Positions 2,008 to 3,488 of a DNA stretch of 13,234 nucleotides are shown piece by piece. Numbering within the stretch: the first letter of the stretch is position 1; each line of letters starts with the position of its first letter. The DNA comes from Pseudomonadota bacterium. GTDB lineage: Bacteria > Pseudomonadota > Gammaproteobacteria > Burkholderiales > SG8-39. The notes under the pieces were generated by a model. It had not been told where the DNA came from. It searched no databases and worked only from the letters and a program-made list of their open reading frames with translations. The DNA is taken from positions 1-13,234 of the forward strand of contig JAKAIH010000018.1 of assembly GCA_021825225.1 (NCBI GenBank), written 5' to 3'. Both the position numbers and the translations under genes were made by a program.

Positions 2008-2047
2008 AAGCGGCGTACTGGCGGCTGGCGCAGTCGCCTACTTCAGC
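2003..2047. repeat. Short inverted repeat spanning the convergent lpxH/metZ stop codons
   Basis: GCTGAA at 2003-2008 pairs with TTCAGC at 2042-2047, enclosing the 30-nt gap between the convergent lpxH and metZ genes. The two stop codons lie at or inside the arms. There is no T-tract on either strand and six base pairs is weak, so this is at best a modest convergent hairpin. No better terminator is visible between the two genes. Confidence 0.25.
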
Positions 2048-3210
2048 CCGCGCTCCAGATCCGCCTGGATATCGCTGAGCGCCTCCAGGCCGACCGCCAC
2101 GCGCAGCAAACCCTCATTGATGCCGGCAGCCTTGCGCGCGTCGGCGCTGATGCGGCCGTGCGTAGTGGTGGCAGGATGGGTAATCGTGCTCTTGGTGTCG
2201 CCCAGGTTGGCGGTAATCGAAATCATGCGCGTCGCGTCCACCACCCGCCAGGCGGCCTCGCGCCCGCCTTTGACCTCGAATGACACCACTGCCCCGCCCA
2301 GGCGCTGCTGCTTTTTCGCCAGTTCGTATTGCGGATGCGATGACAGGCCGGGATAGTACACGCGCTCGATGCCAGGATGCCGTTCCAGCCATTGCGCCAG
2401 CTGCAGCGCGGCATGCGACTGCGCGTCCATGCGCAGCCGCAGCGTTTCCAGTCCCTTGAGCAGTACCCAGGCATTGAACGGCGAAAGGCTGGGGCCGGCA
2501 GTGCGCAGGAAACCGTAGACACCGTCCATCTCCGGGCCGCGTCGCCCCAGCACCGCTCCACCCAATACCCTGCCCTGCCCGTCCAGGTACTTGGTCGCCG
2601 AATGGATCACCAGATCCGCGCCGAGCTGCAGCGGCTGTTGCAACGCCGGCGTACAGAAGCAGTTGTCCACCGCCAGCAACGCTCCTGCCCGTTTCGCCAC
2701 CGCTGCCAGCGCAGCGATATCCGCAATCTCGGTAAGCGGATTGGAGGGGGTCTCGACAAACATCAGCCTGGTGTTGCCGCGCAACGCGCCCTCCCAGGCA
2801 GCTACGCTGGCGCCCGCAACGAAGGTGGTCTCCACACCGAATCTGCCCATGATGTTGGAAAACAGCTGCACCGTGGAGCCGAACACACTGGCCGAGCACA
2901 GCACATGGTCGCCGGCCTTGAGCAAGGCCATGGCCAGCGCCAGAATGGCCGACATGCCCGACGCGGTCGCGACGCAGGTCTCTGCGCCCTCAAGGGCCGC
3001 CAGGCGCTCCTGGAACGCGCTCACCGTGGGATTGGTGAAGCGCGAGTAGATGTTGCCTTCCTCGCCGCCGGTGAAACGCGCCGCCGCCTGCGCGGCATTC
3101 TGGAACACGAAACTCGAGGTGAGATACATCGCCTCGGAATGTTCGCCGAACTGACTGCGGTGTATGCCGGTGCGCAGCGCCAGGGTATCGAATTCGGATT
3201 GATTTGCCAT
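2038..3210 (-). CDS. metZ: O-succinylhomoserine sulfhydrylase
   Basis: MetZ is a cytosolic PLP enzyme that makes homocysteine directly from O-succinylhomoserine and sulfide, the direct sulfhydrylation route to methionine. The 390-residue protein belongs to the Cys/Met metabolism PLP family: phosphate-binding Y55 and R57 (IYSRFTNPT), ring-contacting D182 (VDNCF), and Schiff-base K207 in HSATKYLDGQGR, a form characteristic of MetZ as opposed to MetB or methionine gamma-lyase. The ATG at 3210 is chosen because MANQSEFDTLALRTG matches the usual N-terminus. An in-frame ATG at 3252 would add 14 unrelated residues and is unlikely. The Shine-Dalgarno sequence is weak. It lies downstream of a SAM-II-type riboswitch and terminator, which fits feedback by SAM. 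It converges on lpxH. Confidence 0.95.
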   Translation of the reverse strand: MANQSEFDTLALRTGIHRSQFGEHSEAMYLTSSFVFQNAAQAAARFTGGEEGNIYSRFTNPTVSAFQERLAALEGAETCVATASGMSAILALAMALLKAGDHVLCSASVFGSTVQLFSNIMGRFGVETTFVAGASVAAWEGALRGNTRLMFVETPSNPLTEIADIAALAAVAKRAGALLAVDNCFCTPALQQPLQLGADLVIHSATKYLDGQGRVLGGAVLGRRGPEMDGVYGFLRTAGPSLSPFNAWVLLKGLETLRLRMDAQSHAALQLAQWLERHPGIERVYYPGLSSHPQYELAKKQQRLGGAVVSFEVKGGREAAWRVVDATRMISITANLGDTKSTITHPATTTHGRISADARKAAGINEGLLRVAVGLEALSDIQADLERGLK

Positions 3211-3339: not shown

Positions 3340-3373
3340 AAAAAACCCGCTCAGCTTTGGCTAAGACGGGTTT
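3340..3373 (-). terminator. Intrinsic terminator between purF and metZ, the riboswitch expression platform
   Basis: Minus-strand RNA from 3373 to 3340 forms a long hairpin. AAACCCG (3373-3367) pairs with CGGGUUU (3349-3343). Inside, after one bulged U, C-UUAGC (3365-3360) pairs with GCUGA-G (3355-3350, one G-U pair), closing a CAAA loop. Six U residues (3345-3340) follow directly. On the plus strand there is no T-run, so it acts on minus-strand transcription only. It can end transcription from the purF operon and also from the leader promoter. Its inner arm UUAGC is also complementary to GCUAA of the riboswitch core, so the two structures exclude one another. Confidence 0.9.
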
Positions 3374-3378
3374 CCCAC

Positions 3379-3453
3379 GCTTTAGCTGTATTTGTATGCC
3401 GGTATGCAAACCAGTAACCGGCGGCGCCCGCAAGCTATGCTTCAAATCGGCGC
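3379..3453 (-). promoter_or_regulatory. SAM-II-type (SAM_alpha) riboswitch aptamer upstream of metZ
   Basis: Elements read 5'-3' on the minus strand: P1 strand GCGCC (3453-3449); GAUUUG (3448-3443); AGCUUGC (3436-3430); P1 closing strand GGCGC (3428-3424); an inserted hairpin, GCCGGU (3422-3417) with ACCGGC (3403-3398); A-rich linker AUACAAAUACA (3397-3387); and GCUAAAGC (3386-3379). GCUUGC pairs with GC-(UA)-AAGC to form the pseudoknot, leaving the UA for the ligand site. The GAUUU, UUGC and GCUAAA blocks, their order, and the H-type pseudoknot match the SAM-II class, which in alphaproteobacteria controls methionine genes. The next gene, metZ, is a fitting target, and a terminator follows directly. 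The extra hairpin is unusual. Identification is by eye, without a covariance search. Confidence 0.8.
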
Positions 3454-3459
3454 AGAGTT

Positions 3460-3488
3460 ACGTTACTACTGTAGCGCGCAGGTGTCAA
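3460..3488 (-). promoter_or_regulatory. Sigma70-type promoter for the metZ riboswitch transcript
   Basis: On the minus strand a perfect TTGACA -35 box (3488-3483) lies exactly 17 nt from TAACGT (3465-3460), which keeps the key first, second and last bases of the -10 consensus. The predicted start near 3453 coincides with the first base of the riboswitch P1 stem, which makes the assignment coherent. The -35 box begins 3 nt after the purF stop codon (3492-3494). It would give metZ its own SAM-controlled transcript, independent of the purF operon. Confidence 0.7.

Follow-up and report, generated by a model that had tools for sequence, protein, structure and literature searches.

The leader of metZ in the window, by which we denote the whole stretch of 13,234 nucleotides analysed here, is very probably a transcriptional OFF riboswitch that consists of a SAM-II aptamer with an additional P3 hairpin, inserted after the 3' arm of P1 and before the A-rich strand. 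All features of the leader are located on the minus strand. The earlier note had placed the element before a methionine gene, and this gene (2038..3210) is identified as metZ, encoding O-succinylhomoserine sulfhydrylase, by two NCBIfam models above cut-off (NF006003, 705 bits; TIGR01325, 588 bits). Its start lies about 170 nt beyond the aptamer, and the end of purF adjoins the leader on the upstream side. For metX, the home genome (assembly 84.67% complete) offers just a weak match of 34%, which we do not accept as that gene.

The ordered blocks that the earlier note had read at 3379-3453 (P1, GAUUUG, CUUGC, P1', an A-rich linker and GCUAAAG) are all found in the sequence. The 5' arm of P1, GCGCC (3449..3453), pairs with 3428-3424 and is followed by GAUUUG (3443..3448), the spacer AAGCAUA, and GCUUGC (3430..3435), the 5' strand of the pseudoknot helices P2 and P2a. 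A single G separates GCUUGC from the 3' arm of P1, GGCGC (3424..3428). The adjoining stretch 3423-3398 holds the inserted hairpin (3398..3422, 6-bp stem GCCGGU/ACCGGC) and leads to the A-rich strand AUACAAAUACA (3387..3397), with the A-rich block ACAAAUACA at 3395-3387. The last block, GCUAAAGC (3379..3386), provides the 3' strand of P2/P2a and also the 5' arm of a predicted antiterminator. P1 comprises 5 bp, with GAUUU immediately following its 5' arm and UUGCN immediately preceding its 3' arm; P2a comprises 2 bp in this register, and the nucleotides of the SAM-II ligand site (GAUUU, UUGC, GCUAAA) are all present. GAUUUG is expected to form the third strand of the SAM-binding triplex, a role carried over from the structure of SAM-V, whose core is described as superimposing on that of SAM-II (PMC6061858). 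The same structure is reported to show A-minor contacts of the A-rich strand to P1 (PMC6061858), and a strand similar to that of the window occurs in its relatives.

The core is conserved far beyond the window. Of 252 sequences, a parser resolved 172 into their elements. Among the 80 that it left unresolved, 61 belong to L001-L081, for the most part metZ loci that lack the element (L081 was omitted deliberately); the remaining 19 include 10 loci found by RF00521 (L092, L239-L245, L249, L251) and the window duplicate L152. The 132 betaproteobacterial rows reduce to 128 after removal of duplicates, and alignment A2 consists of 50 of the 88 compact sequences. Across these 50 sequences, drawn from the whole phylum, GAUUUG, UUGC and GCUAAA are invariant. 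Each of the six P1 pairs changes on both sides somewhere in the alignment, for three of them in just one sequence. The cells of P1 are paired to 98.0%, and its covariation score is 0.308 versus 0.122 for shuffled alignments, with none of 500 shuffles reaching the observed score under a control that ignores relatedness. P1 reads GCGCC/GGCGC in 128 of the 132 betaproteobacterial rows; 31 of the 34 rows from other classes of the phylum have CGTGGT/GCCACG, and a few more rows have GCGTC/GACGC or GCGCT/AGCGC. The rows labelled 'alpha' are genomes of the same phylum but of another class, presumably alphaproteobacteria; their SAM-II loci carry the pieces in the same register as the betaproteobacterial loci. 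The four P2 pairs are possible in all 50 sequences and never vary, therefore covariation says nothing for P2. For P2a, a covariation test of L1 against the nucleotides downstream of GCUAAA is negative (365 of 500 permutations score at least as high), and P2a is not used as covariation evidence. The degenerate pattern of the blocks is found in 194 of the 399 genomes of the order, with none among the matches listed for the reversed-pattern control; this contrast and the covariation of P1 place the blocks above chance. The sequence, the homology and P1 are shown directly.

The leader escapes the available Rfam models. The window has no match at gathering scores and falls below the cut-off of every Rfam SAM model. 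At E-values up to 10, SAM_alpha (RF00521) reports 11.3 bits against a cut-off of 36, in an alignment that takes the inserted hairpin for P1 and is rejected as out of register. The test proposed in the earlier note, a search of the leader with the SAM-II model, hence fails, and in its comparison the SAM-V and SAM/SAH models, like those for SAH and the other SAM classes, report nothing for the window at E-values of 10 or below. Across the home genome RF00521 has no match and RF02424 has one antisense match below cut-off.

The relatives that lack the hairpin share P1, GAUUUG, CUUGC, the A-rich strand, GCUAAA and their spacing with the window, and for these the result is different. In scans of loci that we chose (11, 20 and 20), SAM_alpha matches all 11 hairpin-free metZ relatives at E < 0.1, four of them at or above cut-off (41.6, 37.6, 37.3 and 36.5 bits), and also 14 of 14 further compact loci found by pattern, eight above cut-off. 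The scan of 20 compact loci includes six (L232-L237, two of which pass) that were brought in by RF00521 itself, so that only 14 are independent (all 20: 20/20 match, 10/20 pass). The model for SAM-II long loops (RF01726) reports two rows among these 20 loci, at 18 bits and E 9-10. The RF00521 matches in hairpin-free loci fit the same register, as judged by coordinates rather than alignments. Of 20 hairpin-bearing loci, none exceeds the RF00521 cut-off and six have any SAM_alpha row. It therefore seems to be the hairpin, rather than the core, that hides the element, and the window apparently fails the SAM-II model owing to the 25-nt hairpin inserted downstream of the 3' arm of P1. A model trained without any copy that carries a hairpin in L3 (R1) finds the window element at full length with 33.1 bits (E 1.1e-5 in 478 kb) and its two halves with 28.2 and 20.6 bits; elsewhere in the window R1 reaches at most 6.4 bits.

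Membership of the leader in SAM-II is supported through these intermediates, as some hairpin-free relatives pass SAM_alpha and the window matches a model built from such copies. The class proposed in the earlier note for this betaproteobacterial metZ leader is upheld in this way, although not by Rfam directly. With RF00521 the window shares the register of P1, GAUUUG, UUGC, the A-rich L3, GCUAAA, a terminator, methionine genes and a -35 box just upstream, and part of its hairpin-free relatives pass the cut-off. It differs in its extra hairpin, its 2-bp P2a, the nearly fixed betaproteobacterial P1 (GCGCC/GGCGC) and in being missed by the model. The occurrence of a class best known from alphaproteobacteria had been regarded as notable, a surprise that is misplaced since betaproteobacterial SAM-II is already published: Bordetella is listed among the aligned SAM-II organisms in Corbino 2005 (PMC1273637), SAM-II with terminators in betaproteobacteria is described by Barrick & Breaker 2007, and Meyer 2009 reports SAM-II in Alpha-, Beta- and Gammaproteobacteria.

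The hairpin within the aptamer was absent from the earlier note. In the window, where L3 comprises 36 nt, the 25 nt of 3422-3398 fold with -11.0 kcal/mol (z -2.76), and its stem shows one two-sided change within the genus, a G-C pair in the window (and L180) versus A-U in L179 and L002; the contrast in Rfam scores is a further indication of the insertion. An L3 of at least 20 nt is found in 59 of the 128 non-redundant betaproteobacterial elements, a proportion that is not to be read as a frequency because the sampled regions were chosen partly for inserts and the set is enriched. These 59 inserts fold with a mean z of -2.71 (51 below -1, one above 0). Judged by match length, the hairpin-bearing form is widespread: it makes up 46 of the 108 places with the pattern in the home family (47 longer than 50 nt minus one with an insert in L1). 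An L3 of 11 nt is found in 32 of the 34 parsed SAM-II rows of other classes and is the modal length in betaproteobacteria (65 of 132 rows). In four loci (L154, L212, L230, L231) it is L1, the segment from GAUUUG to CUUGC, that contains a hairpin. Our literature search, which covered papers outside subscription and without supplements, found no paper on a P3-like hairpin in SAM-II. A similar hairpin may nevertheless be known already among the 'SAM-II long loops' that Weinberg 2010 describes from Bacteroidetes and marine samples.

As described by Huang & Lilley 2018 (PMC6061858), a P3 stem-loop of 3 bp extends from the 3' end of P1 in SAM-V, SAM-II lacks P3, and P2a, the 3' extension, comprises 5 bp in 60% of SAM-II and 2 bp both in SAM-V and in the crystallised metX SAM-II. 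According to this description no P3 is found between P1 and the A-rich strand of SAM-II. The window has a 6-bp hairpin at 3422-3398 and is therefore filed as a SAM-II variant, not as a plain member. The H-type pseudoknot, the hairpin at the place of P3 after P1 and the 2-bp P2a are shared with SAM-V, and one could ask whether the window is SAM-V, or a hybrid of both classes better filed as SAM-V. This assignment has little probability: SAM_V gives no row at E up to 10 for the window and none in the scans of its relatives, P1 comprises 5 bp in the window versus 4 in SAM-V, and relatives without the hairpin score as SAM_alpha. Also, SAM-V acts by translational control with the Shine-Dalgarno sequence in P2a, whereas the expression platform of the window is a terminator.

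This intrinsic terminator (3340..3373) consists of a 13-bp stem and a U tract (-17.5 kcal/mol), as claimed in the earlier note; a scan placed the stem at 3365-3350, and refolding gave the 13 bp. Terminators are found downstream of 116 of the 128 elements versus 6, 10 and 12 in three shuffles, with at least one hairpin misplaced by the finder used for this count (L002). For the region up to the 3' arm of the terminator, 110 leaders have a mean z of -1.57, with z above 0 in 13 of them. An antiterminator hairpin GCUAA...UUAGC (3360..3386; -10.4 kcal/mol alone, z -2.39 with loop) pairs GCUAA (3386-3382) with UUAGC (3364-3360), the latter being part of the 5' arm of the terminator. Support for the hairpin, the terminator and these competing folds is computational. 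In the 110 leaders, 3.63 nucleotides of GCUAAA are paired versus 1.90 in shuffled sequences. A complement of 5-6 nt to GCUAAA occurs in 58 of the 116 terminator-bearing leaders (shuffles: mean 27.7, maximum 39), so that the antiterminator as drawn is not general, and its role as a universal antiterminator is rejected.

Upstream, the promoter described in the earlier note as near-consensus is borne out in one of its two boxes. The -35 box TTGACA (3483..3488) is perfect and lies 40 nt before GAUUU; the -10 box TAACGT (3460..3465), at a spacer of 17 nt, agrees with the consensus in 3 of 6 positions, and a promoter scan of the window leader reports none. Among the 128 relatives, TTGAC is located 40-43 nt before GATTT in 62, with one further relative having two matches, and 46 have no upstream TTGAC.

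From the class of the aptamer we infer SAM binding and switching of the metZ leader as follows. The transcript would begin at P1 or just before. With SAM bound, GCUUGC would pair with GCUAAAGC as pseudoknot P2/P2a, GAUUU would lie in the groove of the pseudoknot, and U3384 would contact the adenine of SAM, the hairpin presumably leaving the SAM pocket intact. Sequestering GCUAAAGC would block the GCUAA:UUAGC antiterminator, the terminator at 3373-3340 would form, and metZ would be switched off. In the absence of SAM, GCUAA (3386-3382) would pair with UUAGC (3364-3360) and metZ would be transcribed. For metZ of Sinorhizobium, a SAM-II leader has been described in which SAM is predicted to induce termination (PMC9373788), and the minimal Agrobacterium aptamer is reported to bind SAM near 10 uM and to discriminate against SAH (Corbino et al., PMC1273637). 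That the SAM-II fold of the leader senses another ligand, for example SAH or an intermediate of the methionine pathway, finds a parallel in the rare variants of a known SAM aptamer reported as a spermidine riboswitch class (PMC10853860); it is highly improbable in view of the invariance of GAUUUG, UUGC and GCUAAA across the 50 aligned sequences and of the methionine genes that are regulated.

In two genomes of another order (L252, L253) the element precedes a gene that we read from its protein sequence as metK. Here a 9-bp GCUAAACAG:CUGUUUAGC antiterminator overlaps a 10-bp terminator stem, which amounts to the same logic as in the window with a different sequence. Locus L234, also from another order, was considered as an ON switch in which GCUAAA could form the terminator directly; in a longer sequence, however, a second terminator emerged and the layout proved to be the OFF arrangement seen elsewhere. 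In L113-L119 the element ends in GCUAAAGAGGUC directly before the start codon of metX, and control is probably translational.

In the loci examined, the genes next to the element are mostly metX, metZ or metH. In 60 pattern-found loci (L112-L171, window included) the next gene is metX in 38, metZ in 13, metH in 8 and an unknown ORF in one; genes were assigned by clustering and named from representatives, metH from a fragment. The pattern is found in 51 of the 61 genomes of the home family, and three genomes of the same genus have two matches each, every match with an insert in L3. Among the best 80 metZ loci (named genomes), the blocks lie upstream of metZ in 22, in two cases at a distance of over 600 nt; the L3 hairpin is missing from 19 of these 22. 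The home genome harbors a second copy (L256, about 1505-1577; C309:2801-2877), which likewise has an L3 hairpin and is accompanied by a stretch resembling a terminator; it precedes the start of an ORF that we read as metH. The model detected this copy, the pattern did not. Locus L254 (and likewise L112) contains two tandem SAM-II-like elements, of which the first has a terminator; the ORF behind them encodes 102 aa and has no NCBIfam match.

A methionine leader element of the same taxa has been described before. Leyn et al. 2014 (PMC4239095) report a metXZ element in 35 betaproteobacterial genomes; their description of it gives no effector, draws no link to SAM-II and leaves region 3 without a complement. 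Both elements are found in betaproteobacterial metX/metZ leaders, with six conserved blocks, a pseudoknot, a terminator and the same genes and taxa; the difference is that here CUUGC, which we take as region 3, pairs with GCUAAA. As far as can be told from that description rather than from an alignment, the metXZ element is probably the SAM-II element of these leaders. The same literature search found no paper that joins the two.

The best Rfam row of the window belongs to RF02424 (Bp2_287; 3340-3479, plus strand, 29.7 bits, E 3.9e-5, cut-off 70), a family that describes an sRNA on the opposite strand. The reverse complement of its consensus (GCGUCGAUUUGAU...AGCUUGCGGACGC...CAGCUAAA) carries the same blocks, hence the family looks like the same element on the other strand. 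This similarity suggests that RF02424 is the reverse strand of this element and that the family was placed on the wrong strand. The candidate is located upstream of methionine genes in Khoo 2012, where a cis-acting role is suggested for it. That the stretch encodes this sRNA and no metZ leader is scarcely credible: the plus-strand match and the place of the candidate among the verified sRNAs of Khoo 2012 favor it, and against it stand the score below cut-off, a consensus that starts with the complement of a terminator U tract and has the SAM-II blocks in order in its reverse complement, and the -35 box and terminator on the metZ-sense strand.

The metZ leader, read as a SAM-II variant, also admits a wider interpretation, to which we assign slightly less than an even chance: SAM-II and SAM-V may be the ends of one continuous family, with the hairpin-bearing betaproteobacterial form as the missing middle and SAM as the effector of the orphan metXZ element. 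A SAM-II core with a terminator would then have gained or lost a SAM-V-like P3 many times.

The SAM-II class and its betaproteobacterial occurrence are known; new are the hairpin where SAM-V has P3, the invisibility of such copies to Rfam, the probable identity with the metXZ element and the reverse-strand signs in RF02424. The hairpin would explain why Rfam misses many copies in the order, and metH is added to the likely targets of the element. An Rfam sRNA family is perhaps on the wrong strand, as the blocks in its reverse complement suggest. For structural studies, the hairpin-bearing copies are natural SAM-II sequences in which a SAM-V-like P3 is present, and a methionine leader element published in 2014 without an effector would obtain a probable one, SAM.
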